Origin: Bifidobacterium adolescentis ATCC 15703
GTDB taxonomy: Bacteria; Actinomycetota; Actinomycetes; Actinomycetales; Bifidobacteriaceae
Reading direction: 5' to 3'
Length of the DNA: 64,000 nucleotides
Assembly (NCBI RefSeq): GCF_000010425.1
Contig: NC_008618.1
Location: 1,915,946 to 1,979,945 of the forward strand
Shown here: positions 2,618 through 34,848 of the stretch, in pieces
Numbering within the stretch: position 1 is the first letter of the stretch
Layout: every line of letters starts with the position of its first letter
The notes under the pieces: model-generated
The model's database searches: none
What the model was told of the DNA's origin: nothing
What the model saw: only the letters and a program-made list of their open reading frames with translations
Translations under genes and position numbers: made by a program

Positions 2618-3487
2618 TCAGATGGAACGGACGCGGAATTCGCCGGTGCGGTTGGAAGCCACGATCATCTGGTCGTTTTCGAGGCGGGTCCAGCCGTCTT
2701 CGGCGCGCTGGTCGAAACCGGAGCTGGCCACGACCACGCCCTTCGACTGATCGTCGTTTCCGCCGAGCGCACGGTAGCGCAGCACGCGATAGTCGCGCGC
2801 CTGCTCGCCGCGACCGTACTGGTCGTAGATTTCGACGATGCGCTTGGACGTGACCTCACGTCCGGCCGCGCACAGGGCGATGAACTGGTCCTGGCTTTGG
2901 ATCATGCAGTTGTAGCTGGACTTCGGATAGCTTTTGCGCAGTTCACGCACGGCCTGCGCCACCGCCTCGTCGAGTGCGAAGCCAAAGCCGATGTATTGCA
3001 GGATGACGGCGAAGAAAATGGCGGAATCGGAACGGCCGCCAGTGGACTGCACGATGCTCGGATCGACCGGGAATGCACGGTTCGTAATGATGTTGCGGCC
3101 CTGGTCGTCAGAAATGTCGCCATTGTGGATGAAGCTCAGGCCGTTCGCATAGAAGGGCTGCTGGTTCTCAAGAATCAGCGGCAGGTTGGAGCTGGCCAAG
3201 CGCAGGTGCCACAGGCCGCCGCGCGCCGGAGTGTTGGCGAGCTCGTCGAAAATCGGATCATGACGGGCGGCGATGGTGTTTTTGTAGATCGCGGTGCCGG
3301 TTTCCGGAGTCGGCGCACCGCCGTCGCGACGGTATGGCGATTCGTCTGGCACGGTGATCAGCGCGGCGCCCCAGCCGTCGTTGTGGATCTCGCTCAGATT
3401 TCGGAAATCGCGCACGTTCTGCATGCCGAGCACGCCATTGAGGTTGGTGTTGCTGCCTGCCGTCGCGAATCCAAGTAATCTGCACAT
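2618..3487 (-). CDS. Class II glutamine amidotransferase (YafJ/EgtC-like)
   Basis: 289 aa. The protein starts MCRLLGFATAG, so Cys2 becomes the N-terminal nucleophile after Met removal, as in Ntn-type class II amidotransferases. Other family marks are the stretch with NDGWGAAL, WHLRLASSNLPL (the Arg and surroundings that bind glutamine), and FIHNGDISDDQGRN, with Asn and Gly of the oxyanion region. There is no synthetase domain, so it is a stand-alone amidase-type member whose acceptor substrate is unknown. No Shine-Dalgarno is visible; a TAAAGT box lies eight bases before the ATG, suggesting a leaderless message. It is transcribed away from the hairpins at 3629-3827. Confidence 0.85.
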   Translation of the reverse strand: MCRLLGFATAGSNTNLNGVLGMQNVRDFRNLSEIHNDGWGAALITVPDESPYRRDGGAPTPETGTAIYKNTIAARHDPIFDELANTPARGGLWHLRLASSNLPLILENQQPFYANGLSFIHNGDISDDQGRNIITNRAFPVDPSIVQSTGGRSDSAIFFAVILQYIGFGFALDEAVAQAVRELRKSYPKSSYNCMIQSQDQFIALCAAGREVTSKRIVEIYDQYGRGEQARDYRVLRYRALGGNDDQSKGVVVASSGFDQRAEDGWTRLENDQMIVASNRTGEFRVRSI

Positions 3488-3628
3488 GGTTGATTACTTT
3501 AGCGACGGCAGGTTTCGACGCGCGCGTGCCGTTATCGGAGTTGGTTATAGCCTGCGATTCATCCGCCGATTCATATGCATCGCACGTCGCAAAACGCACG
3601 TCACGAACGTAAGTTGTCCCGCAAACGA

Positions 3629-3720
3629 GCAGGAGGACCGACATATCCTGTTGCAGACCGTAAAAACTCGGCCTGAGCGGCCCGGAGCGTGTCGGTAATA
3701 GGATATGCCGGTCCTCCTGC
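3629..3720. repeat. Long hairpin element A
   Basis: GCAGGAGGACCGACATATCC pairs with GGATATGCCGGTCCTCCTGC; arms are about 20-24 nt with one mismatch. The inner part ACTCGGCCTGAGCGGCCCGG resembles, but is not the same as, the GGCC-rich loop of the hairpin at 3749-3827. It is not a simple terminator for either flanking gene as no T-run follows on either strand. Confidence 0.75.
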
Positions 3721-3748
3721 GGACTTGGCGGTATTCAGCCAAAGGAAA

Positions 3749-3827
3749 AGGGCTGGGGCATCTCGTTCGTGACACACTCAAGGCCGTTCGGCCAAGCCTA
3801 CGGTCACAAACGAAATGTCCCAGCCCT
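3749..3827. repeat. Long hairpin element B with conserved GGCC loop; may terminate kup
   Basis: AGGGCTGGGGCATCTCGTT pairs with AACGAAATGTCCCAGCCCT and the pairing continues into GTGA/TCAC. The loop is ACACTCAAGGCCGTTCGGCC followed by AAGCCTA. The same loop, reversed, is present at 28560-28586 inside completely different arms. It lies 35 bp past the kup stop codon, so it could also end kup transcription. Confidence 0.8.
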
Positions 3828-3861
3828 CCTTGCGTAGATAAGCCGTGCTCGCAGAGCGAAT

Positions 3862-6042
3862 TCACACGCGCTTCAGACGCGGCGGACGCTCGGTGGCGAG
3901 GAACAGCGGCTGAATCTCAATCAGCGGATTGTAGGGAGCGAGTCCGAACCATTTGACCGGAGAGCCGGCCAAATGACGAATCGCGTACTTGATCTGCAGT
4001 GAGATCGCGCCCTTCTGGGACACCTTCGACTCGGGCATCAACGCCTTGTGAATCAGCACGTAGCGGATAGGTCCGATGTTCGGATCGGCATCCAGCTTCG
4101 GGTAGCGGGTGGTCTGCTTGGGCAGATCGCCGGACTTCGACAGATCGTTCATGATCTGGTGGATGTATGCAGGAATCGACTGCGACACCTTGAAGCCCAA
4201 GCGAATACGCACGCGGAACAGGAAGTCCGTGCCGAAATTCTCCACCGAATACTCGCGCGTGAACGGGTTGTCGGACGTTTCCACCGACACCGCCCACCAT
4301 GCGCGGGCGCGCTTCGGATGGTCCGCGAAAATCGAGAAGAAGATGTCGGTATCGACACGCTTCATTTCCGGATCGGACGTCAGATAGACGATGTTGTCCG
4401 CGAAATACGGAATCGAATCGTCCTCATGAAGCCGCTTCAGAACCGGCACGCAATCGGCGGGCTGCATATGCCGGCGTTGCGCGCGTTCCAGCTTCGTGCC
4501 TTCGTTCCACGTGTACATAATCAGCAGAATCGCCAATGTCAGCAGCATGGTGAACCAGCCACCGTGCAGGAACTTCGCCATCGAAGCGAAGAAGAACAGG
4601 AACTGGATGGCCAGGAACACCACTGTGAACACGACCGCGCCGACGCGCTTGCCATCGTGCCAAATGTAGACGGCCAGCAGAATCGTCGTGGTGATCATCG
4701 TGACGGTCAATGCCAGGCCGTACGCGGCGGAAATATGCTCCGAATCGCGGAACATCGCCAAAACCAGCAGGGTGGAGACGCACAGCACGGCGTTGACCAC
4801 CGGAATGTACAGCTGGCCGCGGGTACGAGCCGGATAGCGCACCTGCAGGTGGGGCATCCAGTTGAGTCGCGTCGCTTCGGAAACCATGGTGTAGGCGCCG
4901 GTGATCAACGCCTGCGAAGCAATCACGCCGGCGCACACGGACAGCAGCACCGCCACGTAACGCACGGACGGGGTCATCATTTCAAAGAACGGATTAAGGC
5001 CGTGCATGTGGTTGTACGCGGTGTCGTCCCAATGGTTGAGCATCCACGCGCCCTGGCCGAAATAGCAGAACACAAGGGCGATCTTGATGAACGGCCACGT
5101 GAAGTAGATGTTGCCGCGGCCGACGTGGCCCATGTCGGAATACAGCGCTTCGGCGCCGGTGGTGGACAGGAACACGGTGCCCATGACGGCGAGGCCTGCC
5201 GCATTGTGGTGGCTGAAGAGGAACTCCACGCCGTACACCGGATTCAGCGCTTCAAGCACGCTCCAATCGGAGCTCAGGTTCACCAAGCCGACGACGGCGA
5301 GGAACGAGAACCAGATCATGACCACCGTGCCGAACGTGCGGCCGATGCGTTCGGTACCGCGCGACTGCACTGCGAACAGGCAGACGATGATCACAATGGT
5401 GATCATCAGCGTCAGTTCTTTGTTTCCGCTCATGATCGGTTCCAGCAGCGGCAGTGTTTCCAAGCCTTCCACTGCCGAGCTGATCGAGACGGCCGGCGTA
5501 AGCACGGAATCGGCGAGGAACGCGGCGCCGCCCAGCATGGCGGGAATCGCAAGCCATGCCCCATATTTGCGGATCAGCGAATACAGTGCGAAGATGCCGC
5601 CTTCGCCGTTGTTGTCGATGCGCATGGCGATGAACACGTATTTGACGGTGGTGATCAGCGTGATCGACCAGAAGACCAGCGACAGGATGCCCAGCACCGC
5701 GGCGCGATCCGTATGCGCCAAACCGCCTTGGCCGTTGAGGAACGTCTGCATGGTGTACAGCGGCGAGGTACCGATGTCGCCGTATACCACGCCAAGCGCC
5801 ACGATGGCCATGGCCGGCGTGATTTTGTCCGGGCCGGACTGGAGACGGCTCCACCAGCGGCCGATGCGGCCCTTGCTGGCGGCCTCGTCAAGTTTCGCGG
5901 CTTCCTGCTGCTGCGCCTCGTGCTCCTTGATGAGCGTCTGGCGCTCCTCCTTGGTCAGGACCTTGTGCGAGACCTTTGGCGCCTGCGTGTACGTCGCTGC
6001 GTGAAGCAGCGACTGTTCTTCTTCGTTCGGCTCGTTAGCCAT
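3862..6042 (-). CDS. kup: Kup-family potassium uptake protein
   Basis: 726 aa from the ATG at 6042, chosen because GGAGGAAG lies just upstream; an in-frame ATG at 6096 falls in the leader. After a charged N-terminus of about 80 residues comes the family start (PAMAIVALGVVYGDIGTSPLYTM), then about twelve membrane segments, including GEGGIFALYSLIRKYG and SISSAVEGLE, all typical of KUP/HAK/KT transporters. A cytoplasmic C-terminal part of about 180 residues follows (LTSDPEMKRVDTDIFFSIF). The family takes up K+ with protons at the plasma membrane. A strong promoter lies upstream at 6103-6131. The annotation as kup is secure; affinity and regulation cannot be read from sequence. Confidence 0.95.
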   Translation of the reverse strand: MANEPNEEEQSLLHAATYTQAPKVSHKVLTKEERQTLIKEHEAQQQEAAKLDEAASKGRIGRWWSRLQSGPDKITPAMAIVALGVVYGDIGTSPLYTMQTFLNGQGGLAHTDRAAVLGILSLVFWSITLITTVKYVFIAMRIDNNGEGGIFALYSLIRKYGAWLAIPAMLGGAAFLADSVLTPAVSISSAVEGLETLPLLEPIMSGNKELTLMITIVIIVCLFAVQSRGTERIGRTFGTVVMIWFSFLAVVGLVNLSSDWSVLEALNPVYGVEFLFSHHNAAGLAVMGTVFLSTTGAEALYSDMGHVGRGNIYFTWPFIKIALVFCYFGQGAWMLNHWDDTAYNHMHGLNPFFEMMTPSVRYVAVLLSVCAGVIASQALITGAYTMVSEATRLNWMPHLQVRYPARTRGQLYIPVVNAVLCVSTLLVLAMFRDSEHISAAYGLALTVTMITTTILLAVYIWHDGKRVGAVVFTVVFLAIQFLFFFASMAKFLHGGWFTMLLTLAILLIMYTWNEGTKLERAQRRHMQPADCVPVLKRLHEDDSIPYFADNIVYLTSDPEMKRVDTDIFFSIFADHPKRARAWWAVSVETSDNPFTREYSVENFGTDFLFRVRIRLGFKVSQSIPAYIHQIMNDLSKSGDLPKQTTRYPKLDADPNIGPIRYVLIHKALMPESKVSQKGAISLQIKYAIRHLAGSPVKWFGLAPYNPLIEIQPLFLATERPPRLKRV

Positions 6043-6102
6043 AACGCTTCCTCCAAGTGGCGGGCCTTCCAACCCGCTCCCCAAAATAAAACGCAAGGTG
6101 TG

Positions 6103-26194: not shown

Positions 26195-28342
26195 TCACTC
26201 AGCGAATTTGTCGACGCGGCGATCGTAGGTCAGCAGGCCGTTGAGCTCTTCCTCCACGTCGGAAACCTGCGTATACACGTATCCCGCAAGTCCGCGCGAT
26301 TCCAGTGCGGCCGCGGAGGCGAGCACGGAACGCACGGCGGCCCGCCAATCGTCGATCGAATCGTATTCACCGTAACCGTAGGCGCGCGACACCGCCGCAT
26401 GCTCCGGTACGAGCTGCGCCAATCCGCCGAATTCCGAAATCACGAACGCGCGTACGCCGTGTCGTGCGACCGGCAGCACCACGTAATGCGCGGCCCTGCG
26501 GCGACGGCGGTGCTTCTTCTCGAATTCGGCCACGTATCCGCGCAACGGACCCTTATCCGGGTAGATTTCCAGCGGACGAAAATAGTTGTGCACGCTGTGG
26601 TAATCGCCACAATGCTGGTCGTACCAGCCGCTGGTCGCGTCAATCGGACGGGTCGGGTCGAGCGCGTGGATGCGTTCGGTTGCGTCGCACGCGTCGAATT
26701 GGCCCCAGCCTTCGTTGAACAGCGTCCACGTCACGATGGAGGGGTGCCCGCCGAGCATGTGCACCATCGCGTCGCACGTACGCGACCAATCGCGCCGGTA
26801 GATCGGGTCGTCCGCGCCGAGCGCCGTGAAATGTTTGGCGGTGTCGTCGCGGAATTTGTTCCATGTGGAGCGGATGAGCGTCGGCTTACGATTCGTGGTC
26901 CACGCATTGTATTCGCCGTCCGTGCCGCCGCCGGACACCGCGTCCTGCCAGACGAGCATGCCGAGGCGGTCGCAATGGTAGTACCAGCGGGCCGACTCGA
27001 TTTTGATGTGCTTGCGCAGCATGTTGAAACCGGCGTTTTTCATGGCCGTGATGTCATGCGTCAGCGCCTCGTCGTCGGGCGCGGTCATGAGACCGTCCGG
27101 CCAGTAGCCTTGGTCGAGCACGCCTTTGACGAAGAGCGGCTTGCCGTTGAGATGGAAGCGCGCCACCCCCTTCGTATCCGGTTTGATTTCGACGGAACGG
27201 AACGCGCAGTAGGAACTTACGACATCCATCGGCTGCGATTGCACGACCGCCGCATCACCCGCCGTTTCCGCGGGTTTCGCCGACCCGTATCGCAATTCGG
27301 CCCGCACGTCATACAGATACGGATCGGCCGGCGACCACAGATGTTCGGCAGCTGTTGCGATTTCCGCACGCACCTTGCGCACACCCGCCGGCAGCGTCTC
27401 ATCCGCCACCACCGTGCCGTCCGCAGGGTCGGTGACGACGATGTGCAGTTTCGCGTTCGGCTTGTCGCCGCCGATTTCCGCGCGGACGAACAACTTGCCG
27501 TCGGATGCCCCCTTGAGTGTCAGCGTGCGCAGGTAGGCTTCCGGCACGATTTCCAGCCAGACGCTTTGCCAAATGCCGCTTTGCGCGGTGTACCAGATGC
27601 CTTCGCGCTCGATTTTCTGCTTGCCGCGCAACTGCGTGCCCGAATCGTTCGGATCGTAGACACACAGCGCGATTTCAAACGCGTCATCAGGGTCGATAAA
27701 TGCCGAAATATCGACGTCGAACGGCAGGTAGCCGCCGACGTGCGTGCCCGCGAGCTGGCCGTTGACATAGCAGGCACAGACATAATCGACCGCTTCGAAA
27801 TGCAGGATGAGGCGATTCGCGTCGCCGATTTGCCGGACCGTTTCCTCTCCGCCGAGCGTGACGGGATGCACGACGGTGCGGTACCACAGCAGGTTGTCGG
27901 GGTAAATGGTCTGGTGCACGCCGGACAGCGCGGATTCCGGCGAGAACGGTACGAGGATCTTGCCGTCGAACGTTTGCGGAATGGCGGTTTCCTTGACTGC
28001 GCGGACCGCTTCGTCGCGGGTCAGCATCGCCGCCGTTTTGCGCCATTTCGGCGCGGTCTCATCTTCCGGAATGGACACGATCGCGTAATCCCACCAGCCA
28101 TTGAGCATGGTGCAGTTGTCGCGTACCATGGTCGGGCGCGGGTGCTCGCCGAGTATGGGGGTACGACCCTCGTCCAGCGTGCGTTCGCCTTCCTCGGCGG
28201 GATTGAACGCCTTGTTGCCGGCGCGGGCGGATAGCCATTCGTGCTCGATTCGTTCACCCCACGGCGTCCACAACTGCTGCAGCGGCTCACGGGAACGCAT
28301 TTTCGTAGGCGCGGCCTTCAGTACGCGTTTGATATCCAGCAT
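26195..28342 (-). CDS. GH2 glycoside hydrolase (beta-galactosidase/glucuronidase-like)
   Basis: 715 aa from the ATG at 28342 (GGAAGGGG upstream); the frame extends to 28561 without a ribosome site. GH2 order is seen: sugar-binding jelly roll (residues about 60-230, ending FDVDISAFIDPDD ... GIWYTAQSGIWQSVWLE), immunoglobulin-like domain, then TIM barrel (FVKGVLDQGYWPDGLMT, MKNAGFNMLRKHIKIE, acid/base in TLFNEGWGQFD, nucleophile in VISEFGG). A basic stretch (KKHRRRRRAAHYV) sits in the barrel between the two catalytic Glu and is unusual. No signal peptide. It probably cuts a beta-linked galactose, glucuronate or related unit of the same plant glycans; the substrate is not readable. Confidence 0.85.
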   Translation of the reverse strand: MLDIKRVLKAAPTKMRSREPLQQLWTPWGERIEHEWLSARAGNKAFNPAEEGERTLDEGRTPILGEHPRPTMVRDNCTMLNGWWDYAIVSIPEDETAPKWRKTAAMLTRDEAVRAVKETAIPQTFDGKILVPFSPESALSGVHQTIYPDNLLWYRTVVHPVTLGGEETVRQIGDANRLILHFEAVDYVCACYVNGQLAGTHVGGYLPFDVDISAFIDPDDAFEIALCVYDPNDSGTQLRGKQKIEREGIWYTAQSGIWQSVWLEIVPEAYLRTLTLKGASDGKLFVRAEIGGDKPNAKLHIVVTDPADGTVVADETLPAGVRKVRAEIATAAEHLWSPADPYLYDVRAELRYGSAKPAETAGDAAVVQSQPMDVVSSYCAFRSVEIKPDTKGVARFHLNGKPLFVKGVLDQGYWPDGLMTAPDDEALTHDITAMKNAGFNMLRKHIKIESARWYYHCDRLGMLVWQDAVSGGGTDGEYNAWTTNRKPTLIRSTWNKFRDDTAKHFTALGADDPIYRRDWSRTCDAMVHMLGGHPSIVTWTLFNEGWGQFDACDATERIHALDPTRPIDATSGWYDQHCGDYHSVHNYFRPLEIYPDKGPLRGYVAEFEKKHRRRRRAAHYVVLPVARHGVRAFVISEFGGLAQLVPEHAAVSRAYGYGEYDSIDDWRAAVRSVLASAAALESRGLAGYVYTQVSDVEEELNGLLTYDRRVDKFAE

Positions 28343-28530
28343 GGAGAGCCCCTTCCTGCAGCTTTGCACGTCTCTGCGTTTTATTGTACTGAGCGGCTTG
28401 CGTTTTTTAACGATTCGTACCGCGGTTTGAAGTACCGTCTTGCGACACCCCGCCAAGACCAGCTGAAAAATCGCACGCATTTCTACCCAAAACAATGCGA
28501 AAGCAACCGGAACATACCTACGACAAGGAT

Positions 28531-28614
28531 GCGGTCGGTCGTATATGCGTTGTAAGGCCATAGGCTTGGCCGAACGGCCTTGAGTGTGCCGTCAACGCAT
28601 ACCTCGACCGGCCG
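28531..28614. repeat. Long hairpin element C, same loop as element B
   Basis: Arms GCGGTCGGTCGTATATGCGT and ACGCATACCTCGACCGGCCGC pair with a small bulge. The loop (TAGGCTTGGCCGAACGGCCT then TGAGTGT) is the reverse complement of the loop at 3773-3799, although the arms share nothing with those of element B. Confidence 0.8.
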
Positions 28615-28690
28615 CCGGGCCCGCCAATCGCACAAAACGTCGCACAGGTGGAAACGTGATACGGGAATGAGACGCTGAAACGGCACAAAA

Positions 28691-28872
28691 TGTCGCACGA
28701 CTTCGATTTTTCGGCACTTTTTTCAAGTCATGCGACACGGCAATCAAAACAAATACCCCCTAACCGCCATTTTCCGGTCATTTTGACCTAAAAACAGCAG
28801 TTAGGGGGCACTTATCGCACCGCAGCTGTCGCACGACTTGAAGAAATCGTCCAAAAATCAAAGTCGTGCGAC
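28691..28872. repeat. Four-arm nested palindrome, word GTCGCACGACTT (element G)
   Basis: The left hairpin 28691-28737 has arms GTCGCACGACTT / AAGTCATGCGAC. The core CCCCCTAA (28756) ... TTAGGGGG (28801) follows. The right hairpin 28828-28872 has arms GTCGCACGACTT / AAGTCGTGCGAC. The right hairpin read backwards is a near copy of the left, including the loop (GATTTTT). It lies just past the metG stop codon. Confidence 0.85.
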
Positions 28873-28896
28873 GCGTACGGGGGTTATGCGACGGAA

Positions 28897-30759
28897 TCAG
28901 CCTTCCAGCTTCGCCTTTTCGGCGGCGAGACGGGCGGCCTCGGCTTCGCGGCGGGCCTTCAGCTCGGCATCGAAGCGGGCGAGCTCCTCTTCGACGGCCT
29001 CCGGCGGAATCTTCGCGAAGATCGGGTGCGGCTTCGGCACCGAGGTGCCGGCCACGATCGGCTCGGAAGCCCACGGATGCACGGTTTCGCCCAGCTTGTA
29101 GTCGCCCGTGATGATCGGGTACGTGAAGCCCGGCTTGTCGAGATCCTCGACCTCTTCGAGGCGCGGCAGCGGCGAGAAGACGCCGGTTCCGCCGAGGGCC
29201 TCCCACACCTTCTGTGCGGAGTGCGGCAGGAACGGGGCCAGCAGGTGGTTGGCGTCGGACACGGCCTGGGCGGCGGTGTGCAGCACGGTGCCAAGGCGGG
29301 CCGGATTGTCCTTGATCTTCCACGGTTCGGTGGCGGAGATGTACTTGTTGATGTCGCCGACCACGCGCATCGCTTCGGACAGCGCGTTCTTCTGGCGGTG
29401 ATTCTCGATGAGTCCGCCGACGGTTTCGAACGCGGCCTTGGTTTCGGCCAGCAGCGCACGGTCCTCGTCGGTGGCGGAAGCCTCGTCGAACGCCGGAATC
29501 TCACCGAAGTTCTTGTTGATGAGGTTGGCCACGCGGTTCACCAGGTTGCCCCAGGAAGCGGCGAGCTCCTCATTGTTGTGGCGCACGAACTCAGCCCAAG
29601 TGAAGTCGGAATCGGAGCTTTCCGGTCCGGCCACGGAGATGTAGTAGCGCACGGCGTCCACGGGGTAACGGGCGAGGATGTCCTTCACGTAGATGACGAT
29701 GCCGCGGGAGGACGAGAACTTCTTGCCTTCCATGGTCATGAACTCGGAGGCCACGACCTGCTCCGGCATGTTCAGCGGACCGAGCTTGCCGGTTTCGCCG
29801 CCCTTGGAGCCCTGGCCGTTGTAGGCCAGCATTTCGGACGGCCAGATCTGGGAGTGGAACGTGATGTTGTCCTTGCCCATGAAGTAGTAGCCCGGGGTGG
29901 TCGGATCGTTCCACCATGCGCGCCATGCCTCCGGGTCGCCCTTGCGTCGGGCCCATTCGATGGATGCGGACAAGTAGCCGATCACGGCGTCGAACCACAC
30001 GTACAGCTTCTTGTTCGGGTTGTCGATCCAGCCCTTGACCGGCACCGGAATACCCCAGTCGATGTCACGCGTGATGGCGCGCGGCTTGACTTCCTTGAAC
30101 AGGCCGATGGAGAAGTTGATGACGTTGGTGCGCCAGCCTTCACGGGTCTTGAGCCACGCGAGATTGGCTTCGGCGAGCGCCGGCAGGTCGAGGAAGAAGT
30201 GTTCGGTTTCCTCGAAGCGCGGGGTTTCGCCGTTGATCTTGGATACGGGGTTGAGCAGCTCGTCCGGGTCGAGTTCGTTGCCGCAGGCGTCGCACTGGTC
30301 GCCACGGGCTCCGTCGGCGCCGCAGATCGGGCAGGTGCCTTCGATGTAGCGGTCCGGCAGGGTGCGTCCGGTGGACGGGGAGATGGCGACTTTCTGGGTG
30401 CCCTTGTAGATGTAGCCGTTTTCGAGGCACTGTTTGAACAGTTCCTGCACGACCTTTTCGTGATTGCCGGTGGTGGTGCGGGTGAACAGATCGTAGCTCA
30501 GGCCGAGATCGCATAGGTCCTTGGCGATCACGCGGTTGTAGCGGTTGGCGAGCTCCTGCGCGCTCACGCCTTCCTTGTCGGCTTCCACCAGGATTGGGGT
30601 GCCGTGCTCGTCGGTGCCGGACACCATCAGCACGTCATTGCCCTTCATGCGCTCGTAGCGCGCGTACACGTCGGACGGCACGCCGAAGCCGGCGACGTGG
30701 CCGATATGACGGGGGCCGTTGGCATACGGCCATGCAACATTCACCAAAATATGACTCAT
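28897..30759 (-). CDS. metG: Methionyl-tRNA synthetase
   Basis: 620 aa class I aminoacyl-tRNA synthetase that charges tRNA-Met in the cytoplasm. The HIGH-type motif is in [14 protein letters not shown] (residue about 12), a zinc knuckle [18 protein letters not shown] (about 143), [11 protein letters not shown] in the active site, and the KMSKS-type loop [11 protein letters not shown] (about 345), followed by the helical anticodon domain. It lacks the C-terminal tRNA-binding (EMAP-like) domain found in many MetG. A TATAAT box stands 11 bases before the ATG and no Shine-Dalgarno is present, so the transcript may be leaderless. Confidence 0.97.
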
Positions 30760-34229: not shown

Positions 34230-34848
34230 TCGCCATTCCTGCGTTTTTTTCTGCGTCTTTTCACGTCTTTTTTGTCGCACGACTTCGCTTTTCGGACCAA
34301 AAAACAAGTCGTGCGACATTTAATCGAGTAAAAATACCCCCTAACTGGCATTTTCCGGGCGAAAACGGCACTTAGGAGGTATTCGGCGTCGCACGACTTG
34401 AAAATAACCACCAAAAATCAAAGACGTGCGACGTTTCGCGCCACCTAATCGCCAAAATCAGATGGGACGCGACTCGTGCACCATCTGACGATCGCCGTAA
34501 TACAACGAGTTCAGGCCAGGATTCGCCGGCGTGCCCCACGCGGACGCCGGACGCGCCGGACGCACCGGACAGCCGGTGAGCACGCTGGACAACCACCAGA
34601 CAACCACCAGACAACCACCGGGCACGCACCGGCCGGACACCACCTACAAGCACACGCACATAGGCGCCCATAGGCACATATTGACGATTTGTGCAGATTT
34701 GCCACCCGTCGTCGCACTGCGGCGCACACTGCATAGACCCGTTGGTAGTCTGTGATTGGTTCGCAACGGCACATTCGTTGCGCACGATGGAAAAGCAAGC
34801 CACACGAACCGACCCCGCGCAACCGCGCAAAACCACACAGAGAGACCT
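34230..34848. other. Intergenic region with element H
   Basis: 619 bp. Element H fills 34274-34432. The rest (34433-34848) is the leader of the DedA gene and contains a CCACCAGACAACCACCAGACA-type simple repeat (34590-34625). No gene is supported. Confidence 0.55.
34274..34432. repeat. Four-arm nested palindrome, word GTCGCACGACTT (element H)
   Basis: Left hairpin 34274-34317 (GTCGCACGACTT / AAGTCGTGCGAC), core CCCCCTAA (34337) ... TTAGGAGG (34372), right hairpin 34388-34432. Word, loop motif CCAAAAATCAAAG and core match element G at 28.7 kb, but the spacers have diverged, so it is an older copy of the same type. Confidence 0.85.

Follow-up and report, generated by a model that had tools for sequence, protein, structure and literature searches.

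Hairpins with a near-invariant loop and a sequence-free stem in Bifidobacterium and gut Saccharibacteria: a candidate mobile palindromic element

Three hairpins of about 90 bases (A, B and C) in a 64-kb stretch of DNA, here called the window, from a 2.09 Mb Bifidobacterium genome were found to belong to one family with a fixed architecture. Its loop is near-invariant, its stem is paired and free in sequence, and its members occur in two phyla, at sites that are empty in relatives and in frame within genes. Our preferred reading, which we hold at about even confidence, is that the three hairpins are copies of a mobile palindromic element that is non-coding, about 87 bases long and dispersed; it is favoured because of the patchy presence in two phyla, the empty sites, the many copies and the in-frame insertions. 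The three copies and the genes around them are as follows (positions are those of the window).

Element A: 3624–3725, + strand (the fold-favoured strand of the family), covariance model score 56.7 bits; arms 3629–3658 and 3691–3720, loop 3659–3690 (32 nt).
Element B: 3739–3837, − strand, 82.9 bits; arms in the family frame 3745–3773 and 3803–3831, loop 3774–3802 (29 nt).
Element C: 28525–28621, + strand, 65.2 bits; arms about 28530–28558 and 28588–28616 with a one-base slip, loop 28559–28587.
Glutamine amidotransferase-domain gene (GATase_6): 2618–3487, − strand; its start faces A.
K+ transporter gene (Pfam K_trans): 3862–6096, − strand; its stop codon faces B.
Glycosyl hydrolase family 2 gene: 26195–28342, − strand, putative start codon; downstream of C.
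Methionyl-tRNA synthetase-like gene: 28897–30759, − strand; upstream of C in the gene's own direction.

The family layout consists of a left arm of about 29 bases, a 29-base loop with a GGCC-GAAC-GGCC tip and a right arm, about 87 bases in total. Read on the fold-favoured strand, the loop is CGTA(A/G)GCTT-GGCC-GAAC-GGCC-TTGAGTGT, closed by GAC/GTC. The stem measured 28–30 bp in 70 of 105 elements from Bifidobacterium and 26–28 bp in 13 of 27 from Saccharibacteria, with a tail up to 73 in the latter. A covariance model (R1) was built from 42 copies, A, B and C being left out; these were 42 of 67 sequences chosen for at least 22 paired positions, and the E-values of the model are rough. Twelve loci in the window genome were matched at E ≤7.1e-11, with A, B and C among them; the 15 rows of the result also included one reverse-strand duplicate and two weak matches (E of 0.05 and 0.09). 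The match at E 0.09 (L171, G000:C1:934048-934126) is a strong hairpin with a family-like stem and without the conserved loop, perhaps a decayed copy. The flanks of 115 Bifidobacterium elements contained no motif except a weak GAG..CGG beside the stem, and the same 60-nt flanks gave no sign of an own promoter, since no position stood out beyond the six stem-adjacent bases. Some positions in the flanks of 31 Saccharibacteria elements reached 0.19–0.35 bits, which was taken as small-sample noise. Several loci (e.g. L010, L029, L314 and L321) contain an extra inner hairpin, about 40 bases long, in which the centre (GCTCGC..TTAGC) is conserved and the stem is again variable.

Searching the window genome for the loop CACTCAAGGCCGTTCGGCC at 0–1 mismatch yielded eight copies (six exact, two with one mismatch), every one within a long stem. 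The original prediction placed one loop in B and, reversed, in C; this was borne out by a 19-base loop at 3775–3793 (+) and 28568–28586 (−), a few bases away from the positions 3773 and 28560 first given. According to the repeat finder, the stem of B has 25 bp with 88% complementarity (arms 3749–3773 and 3803–3827), and in the family frame it has 29 bp. C folds as well; ungapped pairing gives 15 of 29 pairs, and it was missed by the ungapped repeat finder because of the one-base slip in its stem. A, which the repeat finder reports as a 30 bp stem with 87% complementarity, lies 13 bases from B in the opposite orientation and is a diverged member of the same family, so that its suspected kinship with B proved to be real. 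The model E-values, again rough, were 2.2e-19 for B, 1.4e-14 for C and 2.8e-12 for A. An Rfam search of the window at the gathering score returned tRNA only and left the hairpins unmatched. The longest frame of the glycosyl hydrolase gene reaches 28561 and would overlap C. A different palindromic repeat, TGTCGCACGACTT...AAGTCGTGCGACA, is present at 28640–28895, adjoining C, and at 34273–34318. At 1345–1538 the window also holds four arms of the type TATCTCGCTTAT..GGCGGAT in inverted pairs, where the family model reports no match.

Pairing in the stem was assessed from the alignment of the 42 model sequences, in which each of the 29 outer pairs has changed in both partners. Paired cells amounted to 96.2%, as against 59.4% in shuffles and 36.2–41.5% when the partner was slid by 1–3 columns; this set had been preselected for pairing, and the unselected check is the window genome, where all eight copies are stemmed. 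Preservation of the inner part but not of the arms was upheld in three genomes, from which 21, 20 and 18 copies were examined: the loops were near-identical and the arms agreed on average at 29.3, 27.5 and 28.0 of 58 positions, the closest pair at 44 of 58. The further claim that the stems of B and C share no sequence was nearly right; the innermost GAC/GTC and a weak outer consensus recur among the copies, and the arms are thus not wholly free. Between copies at matched sites (40 pairs, some with members in common), differences amounted to 23.6% in the arms (548/2320), 5.0% in the loop (58/1160) and 11.6% in the flanks (1143/9817), the last from local alignments, which overstate flank conservation. 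Changes that keep a standard pair on both sides numbered 183 in these pairs, and 126 were single-sided. The idea that the arms serve as guides to foreign DNA was tested against the fetched loci only and rejected: 29 of 507 matches fell outside the element filter, and among the 25 of these that were shown the long ones were missed elements and the rest spanned 15–22 bases.

A strand that is selected to fold should tolerate G-U more than A-C mismatches. On the CACTC strand, isolated stem mismatches were A-C 87 times and G-T 27 times (123 elements), which corresponds to G-U on the complement. From the model alignments the bias was 74:29 in 101 Bifidobacterium elements and 23:10 in 26 Saccharibacteria elements; counted by element it was 41 vs 12 (48 ties) and 11 vs 5 (10 ties), respectively. 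Single genomes gave 19:5, 24:5 and 14:9, counts that overlap the Bifidobacterium set through G041, G021 and G032. Binomial values for the bias are near 1e-5 and ignore relatedness. In Saccharibacteria the counts were 17:12 for intergenic copies (20 elements) and 8:1 for copies antisense inside genes (8 elements), so favoured strand and mRNA strand cannot simply be equated. Because of the preference for G-U on one strand, the fold of that strand looks selected, and the conserved loop and the conservation of the stem as a duplex only point the same way. The acting strand would be GAC-CGTA(A/G)GCTT-GGCC-GAAC-GGCC-TTGAGTGT-GTC, either as single-stranded DNA or as RNA; the former is as likely as the latter because no promoter signal was seen and the orientation relative to genes varies. 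The loop, including its GGCC-GAAC-GGCC tip, may be what a protein or nucleic acid recognises, and the stem might be needed merely as a duplex of about 29 bp.

The family was present in 39 of 61 Bifidobacterium genomes sampled, with 0–35 copies (strict filters, E up to 1e-4). Of 17 genomes preselected for the loop pattern, mostly gut Saccharibacteria, 15 carried it, with up to 19 copies; the two misses were one Saccharibacteria and one Coriobacteriia genome. Among 396 Actinomycetota genomes (about 10 candidates scored each) only the window's own genome was found, and a sample of 145 from the Saccharibacteria phylum gave two carriers, G470 itself and G485, its closest ligA match. Further carriers may exist beyond the matches listed. 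Contamination as the source of the Saccharibacteria matches was rejected, as the arms are AT-rich and copies stand in frame in those genomes' own genes. Loop copies lacking a stem, which the original prediction held would speak against the association, were absent from the window genome and made up 15 of the 120 stretches listed from other organisms (e.g. Mesorhizobium and Streptomyces, among the matches listed in a scan of 84,980 species). These are no refutation, because 16 fixed bases should match by chance about 120 times in 257 Gb. In the window genome, a control with the loop written backwards gave six matches when three mismatches were allowed and none when one was allowed. Known Saccharibacteria live on Actinobacteria; the element could have passed between Bifidobacterium and gut Saccharibacteria, and the family, which links the two, may be a trace of DNA exchanged by them. 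The literature searched contained no account of a family like this in either Bifidobacterium or Saccharibacteria, which is weak evidence of novelty because most subscription journals were outside the search.

The empty sites come from comparisons with relatives. The region of A and B measures 338 bp in the window and 95 and 72 bp in two relatives (G012 and G024), where A and B are absent; three more distant relatives were not alignable there. The joined flanks of 13 copies were compared, and several have uninterrupted counterparts in relatives. Four further sites are empty in relatives, and in the seven comparisons that could be aligned neither arm had a clear counterpart, the spacers having diverged. 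On the mobile-element reading, some factor would move or copy the element. Several points were counted against mobility. Among the copies examined in three genomes there are no close arm pairs (best 44/58), in contrast to most elements copied recently; in several species a copy has stayed, still paired, at the same site, which fits a host function too; no mover was found, the Y1 transposase being nearly absent from Bifidobacterium; and neither a target duplication nor an exact insertion border could be defined, as the spacers near the empty sites are too diverged. There was also no plasmid match, and none of the four viral contigs that hold a 17-base pattern matched the family model. One unverified faecal phage record covers 35 of 35 loop positions at 94%.

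The family is, in our comparison, like Rickettsia palindromic elements in behaviour and like REPs in dimer habit. Rickettsia and Wolbachia palindromic elements (RPEs and WPEs) are described as palindromes that are dispersed between genes and in frame in housekeeping genes of reduced genomes, and that are kept at the same site in related species (PMC3767692, PMC10969869). The present family resembles them in having intergenic palindromes as well as in-frame ones in housekeeping genes, at the same sites in relatives. RPEs, however, appear there as families of 100–150 bp with a conserved encoded peptide, whereas here the centre is conserved, the arms are free, the length is about 87 bases and the phyla are others; RPE-type sharing of the whole sequence and of a peptide was not found, since the arms are unrelated between copies. 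REPs and BIMEs (GTAG and CGTC families) are described as short dispersed palindromes, many downstream of genes and some inside replication or repair genes, with dimers mostly in one head-to-head order (PMC3733652). Inverted dimers in a preferred order are seen here too (18/21), but REP stems are 5–13 bp, family-specific and tagged at the end by GTAG or CGTC, in contrast to 29 bp of free sequence and a conserved loop here. No GTAG/CGTC tag was found in the 115 Bifidobacterium flanks, and the stem length peaks at 28–30 bp, not at 5–13. An origin from REP/RAYT or IS200 systems was rejected, as the Y1 transposase domain (PF01797) is present in only 2 of 61 Bifidobacterium genomes and is absent from G000, G021 and G041 among the genomes searched. 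The small, non-coding, multicopy nature, the inverted-repeat structure and the patchy presence recall MITEs. The ends of MITEs, however, match a transposase and are common to the copies; in the present family the inverted arms differ from copy to copy (about 50% alike within a genome) and no common terminal inverted repeats of that type were seen. Integron attC sites act as one folded strand; most of the stem sequence is free in them, and the ends are conserved. The family is like them in the folded strand and the largely free stem, but its centre is conserved and its flanks are not, and no attC-type recombination boxes were found at the ends in the 115 Bifidobacterium flanks beyond the weak GAG..CGG. 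The usual mark by which dispersed palindromes of bacteria are recognised is a conserved end or stem; in this family the pattern is reversed, which points to a factor reading the loop on a sequence-free duplex.

It is possible, though not probable, that the hairpins are instead useful to the host near gene ends, acting via a loop-binding factor in 3′-end processing, as a block to antisense read-through or as a chromosome site, and that their mobility is merely historical. This is a serious rival because the same sites stay occupied and paired across several species. It is also consistent with the loop changing less than the flanks at matched sites, with the paired changes of the arms, and with the placement of the copies relative to reading frames called by our own script: 27 of 117 Bifidobacterium matches lie in convergent gaps, 28 and 26 in co-directional gaps (one count for each orientation), only 4 in divergent gaps, with 15 more overlapping predicted reading frames and 17 located at locus ends. 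The equal share of both orientations in co-directional gaps argues against such a role, as do the orientation of single copies to the nearest stop codon (29 vs 20, not significant), flanks devoid of promoter-like conservation, the 22 of 61 Bifidobacterium genomes in which no copy is found at E up to 1e-4, and the in-frame copies inside genes. Replication orientation in the window genome was balanced (6 vs 6, assuming that the contig starts at the origin), and at one locus the orientation of the element is reversed between two species (L313 in G021, L325 in G032). Of 21 cases of neighbouring copies less than 250 bp apart, 18 share one back-to-back order (two of the 18 being sites seen twice), several of them separated by just 17–28 nt, a spacing that was also counted against an own promoter; the A–B pair is one of the three exceptions. 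A role of the pairs as marks of convergent genes was unsupported (2 of the 11 pairs for which both neighbouring genes were called).

Of the 45 matches in Saccharibacteria, 19 are located within reading frames and in frame (9 of 32 after removal of duplicates). Pfam confirmed the NAD-dependent DNA ligase (ligA), topoisomerase I (topA) and TsaD (tsaD) as hosts; the names der, argS and tlyA for others are putative. The encoded peptide is common to the copies over the loop only, and the frame varies. In essential proteins of very reduced genomes, the copies in ligA, topA and tsaD mean that such elements can bring about alterations. Compared with 26 element-free homologues, ligA has gained 25 residues relative to the nearest (L221), 22 relative to L235 and about 17 relative to homologues whose native stretch is longer, as against a hairpin span of at least 29; the second ligase stretch of Pfam begins inside the right arm, and in two species with the insertion (L117 and L184) both arms carry matching changes. 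Native ligA codons therefore form part of the stem, either because they were copied on insertion or because compensation followed. The pairing in tsaD of L065 runs out into codons of a stretch that is common to L197. Another tsaD (L190, 975–2300) seems to contain remnants of two further insertions with the family peptide or hairpin.

These coding copies bear on an improbable variant in which the arms are made at insertion: a short mobile loop of 29 bases would build its own stem, it or host repair copying about 29 bases of neighbouring target DNA in inverted form, so that one arm is the old target. Selection would later keep the fold, and the loop alone would be inherited from copy to copy. 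The loop that copies within a genome share in place of their arms would fit, as would the ligA gain of 22–25 residues against a hairpin of at least 29, the Pfam boundary inside the right arm and the extended pairing in tsaD. Native codons, however, can also become part of the stem through compensation after insertion; the seven empty-site comparisons (four Bifidobacterium sites) revealed no clear counterpart of either arm, and the weak arm consensus and the sharp end near 29 bp also argue against it.

An equally unlikely alternative is that the pairing is mechanical, template switching during replication copying arm onto arm with no selection on the fold. The arms indeed change at least as fast as the alignable flanks, and one outlier pair (L015/L055) has flanks that are 0.97 identical and 21 of 58 arm bases different, nine pairs having changed in both partners. 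Among the 16 pairs of copies that differ least (at most six arm differences), however, single-sided changes dominate (45 vs 7 both-sided), as gradual compensation predicts, and the preference for G-U over A-C on one strand is not predicted by template switching. That the hairpins, strong and in some cases just behind stop codons, are ordinary intrinsic terminators or chance structures is very improbable given the near-invariant 29-base loop in two phyla, the model scores of A, B and C, and T-runs (four T within 14 nt) on 3 of 142 folding strands and 9 of 142 other strands, compared with 57 of 2980 controls. In five species (L013, L136, L144, L291 and L373) elements with wholly different arms stand in one orientation behind the same gene end, which reads ..EWFEEAK or ..EWFEETK and then stops.
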